Shown here piece after piece: positions 15,220 through 24,711 of a stretch of DNA of 24,811 bases. Both the position numbers and the translations under genes were made by a program. Numbering within the stretch: the first letter of the stretch is position 1; each line of letters begins with the position of its first letter. Source of the DNA: a virus; IMG/VR virus record IMGVR_UViG_3300030110_005530, positions 1 through 24,811 of that record; one strand, given 5' to 3'. The notes below the pieces were generated by a model. It did not search any database. It was given only the letters and a program-made list of their open reading frames with translations, and was not told where the DNA came from.

Positions 15220-15369
15220 TTACTTTCCTTTAATCTTATCTACGATAGGTTTTAATACCATATCCCATACCAAATCATCTTTTTTAGATGGACTTAGCTT
15301 AATACCTTTTTCTAATACATATAAAGCCAATAAAAACCATTCCCAGTTACTTGTTAGCATTGATAGCAT
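15220..15369 (-). CDS. Small membrane-active protein candidate (49 aa)
   Basis: The ATG at 15369 has AGGAG upstream (AGGAGAAGTAA before ATG). The product (49 aa) has a hydrophobic N-terminal half, NWEWFLLALYVLEKG (residues 8-22), then a charged C-terminal half ending DKIKGK. The hydrophobic part is short for a full membrane span, so it may be a peripheral or monotopic helix. It follows two other tiny membrane or coiled-coil genes and could belong to a lysis cassette (holin-like) or act in assembly. No family is recognised with confidence. The stop TAA at 15220-15222 is followed immediately by the GTG start of the fibre gene. Confidence 0.6.
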   Translation of the reverse strand: MLSMLTSNWEWFLLALYVLEKGIKLSPSKKDDLVWDMVLKPIVDKIKGK

Positions 15370-15600
15370 TTACTTCTCCTTTTTTAATTTTTTTATTTCT
15401 TTTTTTAAAATAGCAATTTCTTTTTCATTGCTTTCTATTGTTTTACCTTGTTTATCAATTAGCTTATATGCTTGTTTCATTTGCACATCAAGCTCATTGT
15501 CTTCTTCTACATACTTGTTAATCTTATTTAAATCAAATTGTTTAAAGATTTGCTTTAAGACAAGATCTAAAACTTTTTTAACTAAAATACCTTGTAGCAT
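15370..15600 (-). CDS. Small amphipathic / coiled-coil protein (76 aa)
   Basis: The ATG at 15600 has a good AGGAG site within the previous gene's end. Residues 1-25 (MLQGILVKKVLDLVLKQIF) form an amphipathic helix with alternating Lys and aliphatic residues. Residues ~30-76 form a heptad-like coiled coil ending KKEIKKLKKEK. There is no signal peptide or lipobox. It sits between two very small hydrophobic proteins, with an outer-membrane-type protein and endolysin further upstream in the same operon. A role in membrane disruption or a small structural coil is possible; nothing proves either. Confidence 0.63.
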   Translation of the reverse strand: MLQGILVKKVLDLVLKQIFKQFDLNKINKYVEEDNELDVQMKQAYKLIDKQGKTIESNEKEIAILKKEIKKLKKEK

Positions 15601-15684
15601 TTATTCTCCTATTATTCCAGTAGCATAAAATAATAATAAACCACCCAAAAAAACAACCCAGAAACCTAACCAAAATGCTGTCAT
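15601..15684 (-). CDS. Very small single-pass membrane protein (27 aa)
   Basis: A 27-residue frame runs from ATG 15684 to TAA 15601-15603. It is almost entirely one membrane helix (FWLGFWVVFLGGLLLFYATG, residues 4-23) with only one charged residue, Glu27, at the C-terminus. An AGGA lies just upstream of the ATG, closer than ideal. It fills the space between the outer-membrane-type gene and the 76-aa gene, where the operon otherwise has no gaps. That fit and the clean transmembrane pattern support it. It might be a holin or antiholin-type peptide, but it is unusually short for one. Confidence 0.5.
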   Translation of the reverse strand: MTAFWLGFWVVFLGGLLLFYATGIIGE

Positions 15685-15693
15685 TTCCTGCAC

Positions 15694-16764
15694 TTAGAAC
15701 CTCCAATTAACTCCTGTAGAGATATACTCTTCATTTTTACCATAAAAACTTGCTTTTGTTCCTTCTAAAAACAGACCTATTTTATCTGTTAAAATCATAC
15801 CAAATAACATACCTATATCATATTGGTTTTCTTTTCCTTTATATGATTTATCTGTTAAACCATAAGATTGTGGAAATATATTAAGCCAAATATGTGAGTA
15901 AAATTTAGTATCTCTTGTTCCCATTAATACATCTAACCCTATAACTTGATATAATTCTGCTTGGTATTCTTTAATTTTATTGTCTTCATTATATTGATTT
16001 ATGATGCCTGGCATATGATATTCGTAAAACTCTGAATCAGAATATGCAACTGCAATGGAGTCAGAGTTTTCCCAATAATAACTAGCTTCTTCATAATACA
16101 TTTCCCAATAACCTTCTTCAGTAATTGGGTCAGTTTCAATAAAAACATAATAACTATCAATTTCTTCATTTCCATTTAAATCATGTAGAGGTACTAAAAA
16201 ATCTGTATATCCATACTCATATGCAAGATACCACCAAGGATCTTCATAATCATCATAAGCAGGGTGTCCATATACTGGATGACCTTTGATTGTGAACCCT
16301 GTTGTAAAGTCAATAAACCAAAAGTGTTTTCTGTATCTTATGTCAAGTTCTGCAAACTCTAAATCTCTACTTTCTTTGTTAGTGTACTTACCTTTAACTA
16401 CATACTTATCATTTGACCATTTAAGCCACACTTCTGCATCTTTAAACTCGTTATTTCTATTTCTAACATCTGAATACTTAAATAGATATTCCCAACCATT
16501 TACTGCACCTATAACTGCTTTATCTGCTAATGACGATTCATTACCTTTATAAAATCTACTTCTTGATTGGTATGGAAATAGTGCAATCTTTCTTAAGCCT
16601 ATAGTATAATTGTAATCATTTTTTAACACTTGGTTACCTTTTACATAGGGTGTGCCCATTGTGCCACTAAGATATAAAGTCGAATAATCAAAGAAACCAC
16701 CAAAGACCAAACTAAAAGTCGCAACCACATAAACAATATAATTTTTAAATCTTCCATGCATCAT
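15694..16764 (-). CDS. Phage-encoded outer-membrane beta-barrel protein (356 aa)
   Basis: The N-terminus has a basic start (HGRFKN) and a hydrophobic core (IVYVVATFSLVFGG, residues 10-23), fitting a Sec signal peptide cut near residue 23-25. The mature part is rich in Tyr, Trp and Phe in alternating strands, lacks Cys, and ends STGVNWRF. A C-terminal Phe after alternating residues is the usual signal for the BAM outer-membrane assembly machine. Around residues 190-210 there is an acidic loop DLNGNEEIDSYY that could bind calcium. AAGGAG lies nine bases before ATG 16764; a second ATG follows at once. Its role is unknown: blocking re-infection, changing host surface permeability or helping release are all possible. 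The beta-barrel call is from sequence pattern, not a family match. Confidence 0.72.
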   Translation of the reverse strand: MMHGRFKNYIVYVVATFSLVFGGFFDYSTLYLSGTMGTPYVKGNQVLKNDYNYTIGLRKIALFPYQSRSRFYKGNESSLADKAVIGAVNGWEYLFKYSDVRNRNNEFKDAEVWLKWSNDKYVVKGKYTNKESRDLEFAELDIRYRKHFWFIDFTTGFTIKGHPVYGHPAYDDYEDPWWYLAYEYGYTDFLVPLHDLNGNEEIDSYYVFIETDPITEEGYWEMYYEEASYYWENSDSIAVAYSDSEFYEYHMPGIINQYNEDNKIKEYQAELYQVIGLDVLMGTRDTKFYSHIWLNIFPQSYGLTDKSYKGKENQYDIGMLFGMILTDKIGLFLEGTKASFYGKNEEYISTGVNWRF

Positions 16765-17036: not shown

Positions 17037-17129
17037 TCACTTCTTCTTTCTTTTATATTTTTTCATACCTTTTTTCTTTTTAGCAGGCCTTCCTTTTTTC
17101 TTGCCATAAGTTCCTTTTCCATAAGGCAT
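17037..17129 (-). CDS. Tiny lysine-rich peptide with AT-hook-like core (30 aa)
   Basis: ATG 17129 follows GGAAGG at a spacing of seven. The 30-residue product starts MPYGKGTYGKKKGRPAKKKK and continues Lys-rich to the end, with 16 of 30 residues Lys or Arg. KKGRPAK resembles the GRP core of AT-hook motifs, which bind the minor groove of AT-rich DNA; the usual Pro-Arg before GRP is replaced by Lys-Lys. From memory, short MPYGKGTYG peptides are common in marine phage genomes. It fits exactly between the 214-aa and 85-aa genes. It may coat or condense DNA, but this is inference. Confidence 0.72.
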   Translation of the reverse strand: MPYGKGTYGKKKGRPAKKKKGMKKYKRKKK

Positions 17130-17130
17130 A

Positions 17131-17775
17131 TTAGAACCTTCCTTTCGAGTTTTTTTCTACCTTAGTTAATCTTTCTTCAAATGAACTTATCTTAGCTGAT
17201 AATGCATCTAACTTATCTTTGCAATCGTCAATGCCTGACAGATCAACTTCAGGTATATCTATCTTTTTATTCTTTAATTTATCTAATTCTGTTTTTATAT
17301 ATGTTAAGTCACTAGCTAAAGGTGTAAGTTGAGTAGACAATGTTTTTAAATCTTTAAATGTTTCATCATACTCATCTAACTTGTAAGATATAATTTTTAA
17401 ATCACCCATAGACTTAATGTTGTTAATCTCTTTAGTATTGTCTTCTACTGCACCTGTTAGTGTAAAATAAACACCAACTCCTGACACTACTACAAACATA
17501 ATAGTAACAAGGAATTTTAAATCCATCTGAAATGCTGTATTCTCGCCTATTTTATGAGCCATTGGGGTATCCTCTTTAATATTTACATTTATTTGTTGGT
17601 CATTTAAAGCCTCTGCAACCTCATCTATAGTTACATGACCTTCTTCTACTAATACTTTACCAAGGGGAACTGATCTATTATAATTTATAGCTTCATCAGC
17701 TTGCTTACTTAAAGCTGCTGTGAGTTGTTTTTTATTTATATAACCTTTAAGTAATAATAAATCACCTATTTTCAT
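17131..17775 (-). CDS. MshEN-like domain, one membrane helix and periplasmic-type coiled coil (214 aa)
   Basis: Residues 2-25 and 37-60 are two copies of the 24-residue MshEN motif, L/I-G-x2-L-x3-G-x6-L/V-x3-L-x2-Q, found in type II secretion and pilus ATPases where it binds cyclic di-GMP. In this protein the leading Arg is Lys in the first copy and Pro in the second, so ligand binding is uncertain. A single hydrophobic helix spans about 87-107 (FLVTIMFVVVSGVGVYFTL). Residues ~108-214 are a charged coiled coil with one Cys at 185. No ATPase domain follows. The gene overlaps the metallophosphoesterase by ATGA and lies in the endolysin neighbourhood. Cytoplasmic N-terminus and periplasmic coil are expected from the charges. 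The function is unknown. Confidence 0.75.
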   Translation of the reverse strand: MKIGDLLLLKGYINKKQLTAALSKQADEAINYNRSVPLGKVLVEEGHVTIDEVAEALNDQQINVNIKEDTPMAHKIGENTAFQMDLKFLVTIMFVVVSGVGVYFTLTGAVEDNTKEINNIKSMGDLKIISYKLDEYDETFKDLKTLSTQLTPLASDLTYIKTELDKLKNKKIDIPEVDLSGIDDCKDKLDALSAKISSFEERLTKVEKNSKGRF

Positions 17776-18551
17776 CCTTCAATTAACTCTCCCCATAAAC
17801 TAGTTTTTCCATTTATAATCTGTATAATATGAACTGTAAATAAACCACCTTTAAAAAAATCGACTATTGCAAATGCATGTGACCAATTTATAGTTCTGTT
17901 GTCAAGCCAAGCATTTTTCTCTGTAGACATATCTTTTAAACAACCTATACTCCAGGCTGATTTAGCTCCATCCATATGAGTAGCTGAATGTTGCTGTAAG
18001 TCATGCCAATGTCCATACATTATATTACAACCTAACTTTCTAAGGTGGTTTGATGCATGATACTGACCTCCATACTGATGTCCATGATAAAAATACAACT
18101 TGCCTATTTTAAGATGACTACCAAAAGGATAATATGTGTATCCTCTTTCATCAAGTTTTACTGCATCTTTAAACATATACCCATCTAAATAAGGATAGCT
18201 ACCTACGAACATATTAAGCCAATTGTCGTGATTGCCTTCAGTAATGTATTTCTCATCACATCCAGCTTTATCCAAAGCCTCATCTATTTGATCCATACCT
18301 TTATTAACATCTTTTACATCTTTTTCTAAGGTAGGTAATATATATTCTAATGGTGGTTTCTTCTTTCTCTTCCACTTCCAATGCGAAAATGCTTCCCATT
18401 CACCTACATCTCCAAGATCTACATATATATCTGGTTTAACTATTTCTATAGTCTTACATAATATATTTATAGACTTGACATCATGTAGAGGAAAATGTTT
18501 ATCAGGAGTTACGATTGCTCGTTTAACGACTCCTTTATCCCTCAAAGCCAT
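17772..18551 (-). CDS. Calcineurin-like metallophosphoesterase (259 aa)
   Basis: The five metal-binding blocks of the family are present in order: D17-K-H19 (in TPDKHFP), D45-L-G-D48, G-N-H-D at 106-109, H-G-H at 156-158 and G-H-W-H at 180-183. This indicates a complete two-metal phosphoesterase of normal length. The substrate cannot be read from the sequence; family members act on DNA ends, cyclic nucleotides, nucleotides or protein phosphates. ATG 18551 follows AAGGAAAA. It sits right after the endolysin and overlaps the MshEN-like gene, so it is co-expressed with late genes rather than with replication genes. A link to cyclic di-nucleotide breakdown is tempting but unproven. Confidence 0.88.
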   Translation of the reverse strand: MALRDKGVVKRAIVTPDKHFPLHDVKSINILCKTIEIVKPDIYVDLGDVGEWEAFSHWKWKRKKKPPLEYILPTLEKDVKDVNKGMDQIDEALDKAGCDEKYITEGNHDNWLNMFVGSYPYLDGYMFKDAVKLDERGYTYYPFGSHLKIGKLYFYHGHQYGGQYHASNHLRKLGCNIMYGHWHDLQQHSATHMDGAKSAWSIGCLKDMSTEKNAWLDNRTINWSHAFAIVDFFKGGLFTVHIIQIINGKTSLWGELIEG

Positions 18552-18602: not shown

Positions 18603-19013
18603 CTAATTTGAGGCTACTGCTTTTACTTCTTGACTTAGCTCTTTAGCACGATTTGGGGTTTGTTTAGCCCAAAGACTATCGAGCATCTCAATGGAAGCCT
18701 CTTCGTACTGCTCTGTTTCTAATAAGTATATTGTTTTTTTGAATTTAGAAAAGCCATTAACACCTAATTGATAACACATATCAACCACAACATCTTGTAT
18801 TTCAGTAGGAGCATCTTTTACCCAAGGAAATGTCTTTTTAATCCTCTCAACCAAAAGTGCTAAGTTTCTAACAAGGATAAGCTCTGCTATATCTTCGTCT
18901 AAGAATAGATCTTTAATAGCAAAGCCATATCCGATTGTGTCATAACCTTCGGTGCATTTATAAACAGTAGATTTAAAACCTTCGTGCTTTTTAATCTTCT
19001 TTAATAAAGTCAT
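18603..19013 (-). CDS. Endolysin, T4-type lysozyme (GH24, 136 aa) with Cys in the catalytic Asp position
   Basis: This protein cleaves the peptidoglycan sugar backbone at the end of infection. The GH24 catalytic block is clear: E11 in KKHEGF, C20 in YKCTEGY, and T26 in DTIGYG, with the spacing of T4 lysozyme (E11, D20, T26). The Asp20 equivalent is Cys, a replacement known to be tolerated in T4 lysozyme and natural in other GH24 enzymes. The C-terminal part carries DVVVDMCYQLG and the PNRAKELS region, as in full-length family members. There is no signal peptide, so release through a holin is expected. The Shine-Dalgarno is weak (GAAG); translation is probably coupled to the upstream gene, whose stop is 6 bases away. 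Confidence 0.92.
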   Translation of the reverse strand: MTLLKKIKKHEGFKSTVYKCTEGYDTIGYGFAIKDLFLDEDIAELILVRNLALLVERIKKTFPWVKDAPTEIQDVVVDMCYQLGVNGFSKFKKTIYLLETEQYEEASIEMLDSLWAKQTPNRAKELSQEVKAVASN

Positions 19014-21373: not shown

Positions 21374-22687
21374 TTGGATAATTCACTACAAAATTATAAA
21401 GAAAAGTGGTTTGACTACATGGATTACAAGCCACACTTAGGGCAAAGCAAACTGCATTACCCTACGAAGGACACTGCAAGGTTTTTTGTCATGGTTTGTG
21501 GGAGAAGGTTTGGTAAGACAACTGCATCTGCTATGGAAGCAACATATTATGCTTCTCAACCCAACAAAAGGATATGGCTGGTTGGCTTATCCTACGATAA
21601 AGCAGATTTAATGTTTAGGGAAATTTGGAAAACAATGGTAGTTGGGCATCCAAATGACATTAAGAGAGCTTCAGAAAAAGACAGGTTTATACATTTTAAA
21701 TGGGACACAGTAGTTGAGGCTAAATCAGCAGACAATCCAGATTCTCTGGTTGGAGAAGGATTAGATCTATTAATAGTTGATGAGGCTGCCAAAGTTAAAA
21801 GTAAAATATGGGATATGTATTTATCTCCCACTTTGTCTGACCGAAAAGGGAAGGCTATTTTTATCACAACACCTGAAGGGTTTAATTGGATTTATGACTT
21901 ATATCTCCTTGGGCAAAGCGATGAATTATGGGAATCTCACCAAGCTCCCTCTTGGGATAACCATTATGCCTTCCCTAAAGGTAAACAAGACCAATTTCTT
22001 CTTGAAAGAAAAAGAAATATGGCTAAAGAAGTATATCAGCAAGAGTATGGAGCAGCTTTTACTTCATTTGCTGGTAAAGTTTATCCGATAGAAAGAAGTT
22101 TAGATGTAGGTAATTATAAATATAATCCAAACTTACCTACTTACTGCTCTATAGATTTTGGTTACAGGATGCCAGCAGTTGGTTGGTTTCAAATATATAG
22201 AGTTGGTGGTTTTTACCACATAAATATGATTGACGAAATAATACATAAAACAAATGTCAAAACAGATGAATTAGCCTTAAATATTAAGGCAAAGAAGTAT
22301 AATGTAGTTAAATATTTTGGTGATCCTGCTGGAATGCAGGCACAAGGGCAGTCAGGTTTAGGAGATATAGAGATTTTTAAGAAACATGGCATAAATGTTC
22401 ACACTAAAAGAGATAAAGCATCAAGAAGCATAGCATCAGGTATATCTCATGTAAGAGGTTTTATAGAAAATGCCCAAGGCGAAAGATTTTTTCATATAAA
22501 TGAGAAATGTGTAGGAATAATAACAGATTTAGAGAATTATCGTTATCCTGAAGTAAAACAAGGAGCAGATTTAAAACCTGAGCCTGTAAAAGATGGTTTT
22601 CACGACCATGGTTGCGACATGATAAGATATTTTTTTATAAACAAGTTTCCAATTAAACAAAGAGAATTTAAAGTGAGGACAAGATGA
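21374..22687 (+). CDS. terL: Terminase large subunit (packaging ATPase/nuclease, 437 aa)
   Basis: This protein pumps DNA into the prohead and cuts it. The ATPase part has Walker A GRRFGKTT at 43-50, Walker B LLIVDE at 132-137 and the coupling motif ITT at 165-167. The nuclease part has SIDFGY with Asp261, GDPAG with Asp317 and DHGCDMIRY near 411-419. Length is normal. The start is uncertain: TTG 21374 has no well-placed Shine-Dalgarno, while ATG 21364 has AGG five bases upstream but is out of frame by +1 and stops after five codons. The first in-frame ATG is 21419, four codons before the conserved HLGQSKLHYP segment. The gene overlaps the portal by ATGA. Confidence 0.95.
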   Translation: MDNSLQNYKEKWFDYMDYKPHLGQSKLHYPTKDTARFFVMVCGRRFGKTTASAMEATYYASQPNKRIWLVGLSYDKADLMFREIWKTMVVGHPNDIKRASEKDRFIHFKWDTVVEAKSADNPDSLVGEGLDLLIVDEAAKVKSKIWDMYLSPTLSDRKGKAIFITTPEGFNWIYDLYLLGQSDELWESHQAPSWDNHYAFPKGKQDQFLLERKRNMAKEVYQQEYGAAFTSFAGKVYPIERSLDVGNYKYNPNLPTYCSIDFGYRMPAVGWFQIYRVGGFYHINMIDEIIHKTNVKTDELALNIKAKKYNVVKYFGDPAGMQAQGQSGLGDIEIFKKHGINVHTKRDKASRSIASGISHVRGFIENAQGERFFHINEKCVGIITDLENYRYPEVKQGADLKPEPVKDGFHDHGCDMIRYFFINKFPIKQREFKVRTR

Positions 22688-24006
22688 CAAATATGACAGT
22701 AGAAGAAATTATAAAGCAATCAGTATCTGATTCTAAGTTAATGAATCAGAAAAATAGAAGAGAATGGGTTCGTAAAATGCTCGACTATTATGGAGGGAAT
22801 GGAACACACAACTATATAGAAAGTTACTTTGCTGCTGATGCTTTTAGAGAAATCCCCTGTTATAATGCAAACTTTACTAGAAGATTTGTTAATAAAATGA
22901 GCAGAATCTACACAGTAGGGGCTAATCGTAATGTAAGTAACGAATATGACCTACTGACTATTAAAAAAGATGCTAGAATGAAGCATGTAGAAAGAATGAC
23001 TCGTTTAATGGGAACTGTTGCTACACAAATTATATATAAAGAGGTGAATGGGATGCCATTTTTTGATTATAGACCTGTTTATTACTTTGATGTGCATTTA
23101 AAAGACCCATTTACACCTTCTGCTATCATGTATCCACTATTAATGCAACCTGAAGACATAAATAATACAGAAAAATGTGAATGGGCTTACTGGGATGAGT
23201 CAATTTATGTTCATTATGACGAAACAGGCAGTATAATTGACGAATATGAGCATGGGTATGGTGTTTTACCATTTTTATTCACTCATAGAGAGGAACAAAT
23301 AGACGAATTTTTCGTAGATGGTGCTAATGACATCGTAGATTGCAATGAACAAGTTAATATTGCTATGACAGAGATGCAATTAGGTCTAAGATTCCAAATG
23401 TTCGGTCAGCCATTTATGACAGGAGTAGATTCTGACAAAAGAATTGAAAGAGCAGGTTCAGATCAAATAATTGACCTACCTGAAGGTGCAAGCTTTGGAA
23501 TTGTATCACCAGCAGGCAATATTGAGTCAGTTATTGAGAATATTAAGTTCCAAGTGGACTTAGTAGCACAAAATAACCACTTATATGTTCAATTTGCACA
23601 AGATGGTGGCGAAACTCCATCAGGAATTGCACTTAAAATCAAAGATTTAGAGAGATTTGAGGATTATCAAGACGATATAGAGCTTTGGAGGATGTATGAG
23701 CATGAATTATACTATGTTGAAAGAGAAATTGCTGCTTATAACAATATAAACCTTCCAGAAAAGCTAATGTTAGACTTTAACGAGCCTGAATATCCAAAAA
23801 CAGTACAAGACCAGATATTATTAGACGAACATAGACTAAAACATCATATGTTAGATGAAGTAGATCTATTAATGGAGTATAATAAAGACTTATCTAAAGG
23901 TCAAGCTGAGAAAATTATAGAAAAAAATAAAAAAGCTATGGAAGATAAGCACTTGCAAGCTATGGAAGCTGGTGAATATGAGGAAGTAGAAAATGTGGAA
24001 GATTAA
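22684..24006 (+). CDS. Portal protein (440 aa)
   Basis: A 440-residue protein overlapping the terminase stop by four bases, with GAGGACAAG upstream of ATG 22684. The N-terminal segment (RREWVRKMLDYYGGNG, about 21-36) and RRFVNKMSRIYTVG (about 64-77) match the start of marine phage portals. Residues ~180-230 give a beta region (VHYDETGSIIDEYEHGYGVLPF). Around 295-325 lies QFAQDGGETPSGIALKIKDLER, typical of the portal stem and loop. The C-terminal ~90 residues are charged helix. The portal forms the dodecameric ring at the capsid vertex through which DNA passes. Order with the terminase confirms the call. Confidence 0.92.
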   Translation: MTNMTVEEIIKQSVSDSKLMNQKNRREWVRKMLDYYGGNGTHNYIESYFAADAFREIPCYNANFTRRFVNKMSRIYTVGANRNVSNEYDLLTIKKDARMKHVERMTRLMGTVATQIIYKEVNGMPFFDYRPVYYFDVHLKDPFTPSAIMYPLLMQPEDINNTEKCEWAYWDESIYVHYDETGSIIDEYEHGYGVLPFLFTHREEQIDEFFVDGANDIVDCNEQVNIAMTEMQLGLRFQMFGQPFMTGVDSDKRIERAGSDQIIDLPEGASFGIVSPAGNIESVIENIKFQVDLVAQNNHLYVQFAQDGGETPSGIALKIKDLERFEDYQDDIELWRMYEHELYYVEREIAAYNNINLPEKLMLDFNEPEYPKTVQDQILLDEHRLKHHMLDEVDLLMEYNKDLSKGQAEKIIEKNKKAMEDKHLQAMEAGEYEEVENVED

Positions 24007-24514
24007 AACTAAAATTAATTTTGATTTTTCTAAGGCTGTCAAAAAACTAGATAAGATTTTCGAGAATATGTTTGATAAAATTGGAGAAAAATCTATAAAA
24101 TCTATGAGAGAAACAATTGATAATCATGGATATGGTCAATATAGTGCTCCGAACCAAGGAAGATTGTCAGATGTAAGAAGAATTAACAGGCAAAGAGGTA
24201 TTGGGTTTCCTGACCCACCAAAAGGAAGACTTGTAGCACCTACTTCTGATGATACTCCTCTAAAACAAACAGGAAGATTATATAAAAGCATGCAAGTTAA
24301 AAAAGATGGTATTCATATGATGGATTATGGAGAAGCACACAATGATGGCAGAAAAGATAAAGTTTATCCTAATGTAGGAAATATGCCTAAAAGAGAATTT
24401 ATTGACATAGGAATAAAAAATGCCCTAGAAGATCCAGACAGAGAATCTGTTTATAATCAGGTATTAGATGCTATTTTTAAATCAATAGAATCTAAATGGA
24501 AGATGTCTAAATAA
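23993..24514 (+). CDS. Neck / virion morphogenesis protein (173 aa)
   Basis: ATG 23993 overlaps the portal end by 14 bases and follows GAGGAAG. The first ~40 residues form a helix with KAVKKLDKIFENMFDKIGEKS. The segment DTPLKQTGRLYKSMQVKKDG (about 83-102), then EAHNDGRK and MPKREFIDIGI (about 131-141), is the signature pattern of the Mu gpG-like / phage virion morphogenesis family, which helps join head and tail. It is therefore on the packaging operon while the adaptor, terminator and tail genes are on the opposite strand. The family call is by pattern from memory and is reasonably firm. Confidence 0.7.
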   Translation: MWKIKTKINFDFSKAVKKLDKIFENMFDKIGEKSIKSMRETIDNHGYGQYSAPNQGRLSDVRRINRQRGIGFPDPPKGRLVAPTSDDTPLKQTGRLYKSMQVKKDGIHMMDYGEAHNDGRKDKVYPNVGNMPKREFIDIGIKNALEDPDRESVYNQVLDAIFKSIESKWKMSK

Positions 24515-24711
24515 TGTCAGACGAAGAATATAAAAAAATGCTAAAGATGTATTCAGTTCTTGAGAGAATTATGGATAAGTATATAAAAGAGTTCTCAGAG
24601 GAACAAGAGCTAGAGAATACAGATAGCCCAATTATGATACCAACTGAAATATATGATGAGATTTGTTACGAGATGGGAACTGACGAGATAGGTTTAATGG
24701 GAATTAGTTAA
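24514..24711 (+). CDS. Small acidic protein, unknown (65 aa)
   Basis: ATG 24514 shares one base with the upstream stop (TAATG), so translation is coupled to the neck gene. The protein is acidic and mostly helical (MSDEEYKKMLKMYSVLERI), with a Pro-containing turn near residue 40 and a short ending MGIS. No motif is recognised. A T-rich stretch (GTTTTTCTTTTTAT) follows the stop, without a clear hairpin. It overlaps the 3' end of a leftward gene by 18 bases. Confidence 0.65.
   Translation: MSDEEYKKMLKMYSVLERIMDKYIKEFSEEQELENTDSPIMIPTEIYDEICYEMGTDEIGLMGIS

Follow-up and report, generated by a model that had tools for sequence, protein, structure and literature searches.

In MshE of Vibrio cholerae, c-di-GMP is contacted by leucine triads, by the glycine and glutamine of the MshEN motif and by a leading arginine (PMC5013675). 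The GSPII-B domain of Thermus thermophilus PilF binds c-di-GMP (6 nM) with lysine and leucine at the leading positions, and GSPII-C, with proline at motif II, is a binder too (PMC11731258). The periplasmic part of the spanin Rz has a helix-linker-helix form, and in a survey of 677 phages 91 had no spanin that could be found (PMC6139136). In the literature that we searched there was no report of a phage MshEN protein, nor of an MshEN domain in any phage protein for lysis or the envelope, and it did not describe a gene for a phage inner-membrane coiled coil alongside one for an outer-membrane beta-barrel, or a lysis partner of the barrel type. The locus described here may bring these elements together. 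With somewhat less than even confidence, we tentatively read it as encoding a two-product inner-membrane coiled-coil protein and an outer-membrane barrel in a spanin-like layout, equipped with a swappable cytosolic regulator.

The window, by which we mean the whole stretch of DNA analysed (24,811 nucleotides), is a 24.8-kb virus record; its genes for a terminase, a tape measure and a lysozyme mark it as a tailed phage. The gene under study is on the minus strand, starting at 17,775, and the plus strand across 17131-17775 carries many stops; the features considered are collected in Table 1. The terminase, the next large open reading frame and two small genes (21374-24711, plus strand) run opposite to the other late genes. 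Viral contigs carry relatives of the MshEN gene at 55 loci. No homologue came up in two scans that covered contigs from bacterial and archaeal genomes, and searches for cultivated relatives of this gene and of the barrel gave nothing useful.

Table 1. Features of the MshEN gene and its surroundings in the window
Feature	Position	Strand	Basis or remark
Full gene, long form: MshEN-like head, membrane helix and coiled coil, 214 aa	17131..17775	minus	ORF
MshEN-like head, predicted cytosolic, residues 1-64	17584..17775	minus	profile search, AlphaFold2, Foldseek, motif scan
Motif I, residues 2-25, KIGDLLLLKGYINKKQLTAALSKQ	17701-17772	minus	
Motif II, residues 37-60, PLGKVLVEEGHVTIDEVAEALNDQ	17596-17667	minus	
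Shine-Dalgarno GAGGA of internal start	17570..17574	minus	-5.8 kcal/mol in window
Internal start ATG, codon 72, predicted start of 143-aa short form	17560..17562	minus	78/78 homologues, which share ancestry
Membrane helix, about residues 86-108	17452..17520	minus	hydropathy, AlphaFold2
Helix-linker-helix coiled coil, residues 109-214, predicted periplasmic	17134..17451	minus	AlphaFold2; topology inferred
Partner: predicted outer-membrane beta-barrel, 356 aa, C-terminal STGVNWRF	15694..16764	minus	AlphaFold2, Foldseek
30-aa single-TM ORF MQEMTAFWLGFWVVFLGGLLLFYATGIIGE, holin candidate	15601..15693	minus	same position in many relatives
76-aa amphipathic/coiled-coil protein	15370..15600	minus	in conserved block
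49-aa single-TM ORF MLSMLTSNWEWFLLALYVLEKGIK..., holin candidate	15220..15369	minus	conserved block
T4-type phage lysozyme (endolysin), upstream	18603..19013	minus	PF00959 5.4e-9, phrog_7 8.5e-17
Metallophosphoesterase; stop overlaps MshEN-gene start	17772..18551	minus	phrog_221 3.1e-24

The two 24-residue MshEN motifs that a preliminary description had placed in the first 60 residues are indeed present, no ATPase is attached to them, and the leading positions are, as was stated, not arginine (Lys2 and Pro37). Motif I is a full match to the relaxed MshEN motif and motif II has one mismatch (His47). Since the pattern occurs in only two of 3,919 other open reading frames (614,000 residues from the window and related loci), and twice in none, the tandem motif is not a matter of chance. 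Single-sequence Pfam and PHROG scans of the gene product gave coiled-coil-type or weak matches only, with Pfam MshEN unreported; a profile of 21 homologous N-domains, run against PDB sequences, matched PilF (2.3e-9), MshE (1.3e-4) and PilB (5e-3), and all 13 of the matches listed up to E=10 are MshEN-type. The head is modelled by AlphaFold2 as four helices (residues 3-9, 15-31, 38-45 and 50-64; pLDDT about 80 over the first 64 residues), and a Foldseek search with the model ranked highest the MshE and PilF domains of structures with bound c-di-GMP (61-62 columns, 1.0-1.7 A), at E values of only about 0.1 and with no match below 0.001. For the protein as a whole the model is weak (pTM 0.27), so the arrangement of its domains is not readable from it. 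Purifying selection acts on the codons of the N-domain (median dN/dS about 0.1). A relationship between the head and MshEN domains is thus supported by profile comparison and by modelling.

Within the window's clade (clade A), the head has in common with MshE and with PilF GSPII-B and -C the two 24-residue motifs, the four-helix fold and most of the leucine, glycine and glutamine contact positions, Ile3 and Val53 being conservative changes. It differs from them in lacking both the ATPase and the C-terminal MshEN subdomain, in having lysine and proline rather than arginine at the leading positions, and in sitting on a single-TM coiled-coil protein; the spacer between the motifs is 11 residues in clade A, compared with 5 in MshE. 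The doubt about binding that had been raised over Lys2 and Pro37 is weaker than supposed because both residues occur in PilF domains that bind c-di-GMP, and the proposal that they mean loss of binding is contradicted by PilF. Both residues are thus compatible with binding of c-di-GMP.

The same membrane and coiled-coil part (the C-part) also occurs behind another type of head, clade B (MNIGDYLLKTNKITQKQREKA...), which is related to the window-type head (hhalign probability 92, 7e-7) and is degenerate as an MshEN domain. In motif I of the clade B heads, arginine and glutamate occupy positions that require leucines, so these heads are unlikely to bind c-di-GMP in the manner seen in MshE and PilF and, to judge from these residues, have probably lost the ability. 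Loss of the motif in homologues, which the preliminary description had named as evidence against its reading, is therefore seen in clade B and not in the window's clade. The well-supported branches of the C-part tree require a switch of head type on at least four occasions, and the head has been lost once, at locus L072, which encodes the C-part alone. A metallophosphoesterase gene often lies directly upstream of the MshEN gene (in the window and at L014, L023 and L100), the L014 and L100 enzymes being of an unrelated class (394 aa) whose N-terminus resembles a zinc ribbon. We rejected as unsupported the idea that the metallophosphoesterase serves as a c-di-GMP hydrolase; it is also found next to clade B heads.

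The single membrane helix and following coiled coil, also part of the preliminary description, are borne out by hydropathy (peak 2.28 for the 19-residue window starting at residue 88) and by AlphaFold2 helices at residues 86-169 and 180-209. Residue charges around the membrane helix give a weak indication of orientation, and the arrangement of one TM helix followed by a periplasmic helical domain is a prediction. The C-terminal G-R-F end of the coiled-coil part is conserved. The single cysteine that had been pointed out in the coiled coil is present but incidental; it is missing from many homologues, and we ruled out a functional role on that ground.

This protein is encoded close to a predicted outer-membrane partner. 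The barrel protein, 356 aa in the window and about 350 aa in general, has a signal-type N-terminal helix and a STGxNWRF-like C-terminal end; its AlphaFold2 model consists mostly of beta strands (mean pLDDT 77) and resembles, in Foldseek, outer-membrane barrels such as FapF, OmpG and NanC (5e-6 to 5e-5). The TM-coiled-coil gene lies upstream at 69 of 71 barrel loci, many of the pairs overlapping or at most 12 bases apart; of the two unpaired loci, one ends short upstream and the other belongs to a second phage family. In the window the two genes are separated by an 85-aa basic gene and a 30-aa basic ORF. The latter (MPYGKGTYGKKKGRPAKKKKGMKKYKRKKK, 17037-17129, minus strand), situated between the MshEN gene and the 85-aa gene, is very basic, contains an AT-hook-like GRPAKKKK and had no match in a PHROG search. 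Beyond the barrel, the 30-aa TM ORF has no family match and the 49-aa TM ORF matches phrog_38127 (function unknown) weakly (0.005). The lysozyme is found upstream in the window and in many first-family relatives, and was undetected at some loci. Very long repetitive fibre-like proteins with AxGxxAGxxxTTG-type units are also encoded upstream at two loci (L044:1298-4636, 1,112 aa; L098:2330-5548, 1,072 aa).

Lambda Rz/Rz1 offers a close layout, in that adjacent genes near an endolysin encode a predicted inner-membrane helix-linker-helix protein and an outer-membrane partner. The partner here, however, has a signal-type N-terminus and is predicted to form a beta-barrel, whereas that of the spanin is a lipoprotein, and the inner protein has a cytosolic MshEN head; a spanin function is proposed by us for this pair. 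The barrel counts against the spanin-like reading, and because of it we do not assign the pair to the spanin family. Within the 24.8-kb window, itself a genome fragment, we saw no convincing candidate for a lipoprotein o-spanin or lipobox ORF; a spanin may lie elsewhere in the genome.

The same pairing recurs in the second family, on other virus contigs, whose barrels are homologous to those of the first (hhalign 1.5e-64). In all 36 testable cases the barrel is followed by a headless TM-coiled-coil protein of 91-92 aa, and the alignment of its profile to the C-part begins at the internal start (probability 96.7, 4e-10). Loci with 3 kb of flank carry an M15 endolysin (phrog_894, 4.5e-34) in 20 of 29 cases and a GTA-type 3-TM holin (phrog_3427, 9.8e-29) in 22 of 29. 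This form is widespread, one scan giving 544 candidate relatives. Among the best 80 of these loci there is no MshEN-like head, and a barrel was found at 53; short flanks explain part, not all, of the 27 without a detected barrel, and we rejected the notion that pairing is obligatory in this family. A thioredoxin-like protein with a signal-type N-terminus (L216:7292-7660 and relatives) follows the TM-coiled-coil gene at nearly all second-family loci and is more constant there than the barrel. Four loci (L336, L348, L354 and L390) have two TM-coiled-coil paralogues, the second immediately preceding the M15 endolysin.

It might instead be that the single-TM protein, with its N-terminus in and C-terminus out, is itself the hole former, a class III holin like T4 T. 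The long form would then be the regulated or antiholin version, the larger analogue in the manner of lambda S105/S107, and the barrel would have a separate job. The upstream lysozyme lacks a signal peptide and so requires a holin, the dual start is as in lambda S, and T4 T likewise combines a single TM helix and short cytosolic N-terminus (in our case, that of the short form) with a large periplasmic part. The C-part also has weak similarity to phrog_1296 'holin' (2.4e-4 for the window, 3.8e-4 for L072), a match that we rejected as too generic to class the protein as a holin; a TM helix followed by a coiled coil resembles many unrelated families. The periplasmic part here is a predicted coiled coil and, unlike T4 T, the protein has a barrel partner, a strong pairing that the holin reading leaves unexplained. 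The second family, moreover, has a separate holin beside the same protein, and the window's conserved block holds two other small TM ORFs. We consider this account rather doubtful. Small XhlA-like or single-TM proteins encoded upstream at other loci (L100:4358-4552, L095:4793-4993, L072:3122-3382) are possible separate holins.

A role in superinfection exclusion or pilus interference, in which the head would bind host type IV pilus, type II secretion or PilZ-type partners and the barrel would mask or alter the surface, appears quite unlikely. The fold is that of the N-domain of pilus assembly ATPases, including PilB bound to PilZ, and the barrel would be exposed at the surface, but the genes lie in a late module close to the endolysin, and the head is swapped, can be lost and was undetected at the second-family loci inspected.

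To return to the two-product reading, a start lies within the gene, at the junction of head and helix. An in-frame ATG or GTG is present there in each of the 78 distinct DNA versions of the homologues, though shared ancestry means that these are not 78 independent trials. The mean Shine-Dalgarno energy of 62 distinct linkers is -7.0 kcal/mol, compared with -4.5 +/- 0.31 kcal/mol in synonymous codon shuffles, none of 500 shuffles reaching the observed strength; the annotated starts in the window span +0.4 to -10.0 kcal/mol, a range that includes the value for the internal start. Six linkers have GTG at the junction, a codon that makes up 6.6% of valine codons in homologues of the MshEN gene, and linkers of wholly unlike peptide sequence retain both the start and the Shine-Dalgarno signal in their DNA. 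Both the GTG and the linker-replacement cases are derived. At L072, stop codons, AGGAGG and an ATG precede the C-part, and the locus nests among fused clade B relatives on the tree, so the short form has outlived loss of the head. From these patterns it seems that a short form is also made from the internal start, and the MshEN part looks to be an add-on in front of an older C-part. A plain fusion, making the long protein only and carrying the start and Shine-Dalgarno as relics of two genes or as by-products of a Glu/Lys-rich linker, is the least probable reading, for while the frame is open across the junction in every first-family member found except L072, the only unfused one, the signal exceeds that of synonymous shuffles, survives replacement of the linker peptide and keeps its start as GTG where methionine has been lost.

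A second in-frame start with a ribosome-binding site is a feature of dual-start membrane lysis genes. As in lambda S105/S107, one membrane-protein gene has two in-frame starts, the inner with its own Shine-Dalgarno; the extension here, however, is a whole folded domain of 71 residues, where that of lambda is two residues, and a holin function is putative here.

We propose the following for the two-product reading. The core would be an inner-membrane protein with a short N-terminus inside, one helix and a coiled coil in the periplasm, and the neighbouring barrel would pair with it to span the envelope, within the late lysis module or next to it. The short form, from the internal start, would be the older, self-sufficient protein, and MshEN-type heads would have been added upstream of this older pair with the original start retained, such that both forms are made, the long form adding the cytosolic head. 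Long and short chains would be mixed in one oligomer, and the head would tune the timing of the pair's action by way of a ligand or of a partner in the cytosol. The whole suggests an adjustable device bridging or opening the host envelope. The membrane sensor of the preliminary description thus stands as regards its MshEN relationship, and is an incomplete picture given the clade B head, the internal start and the barrel partner.

For phage biology, the barrel and coiled-coil pair would represent a concrete, testable candidate for the missing outer-membrane disruptors, and its core protein is common. To judge from the comparisons made here, the conserved internal start may be a clean case in which a regulatory domain was added to an old gene and the old product was kept. 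A new kind of phage envelope or lysis device, in which the pair is tuned by its swappable c-di-GMP-receptor-type head via the ratio of long to short translation products and exit follows the second-messenger state of the host, is an unlikely reading; if the head does bind c-di-GMP, phage exit would be coupled to the second-messenger signalling of the host.
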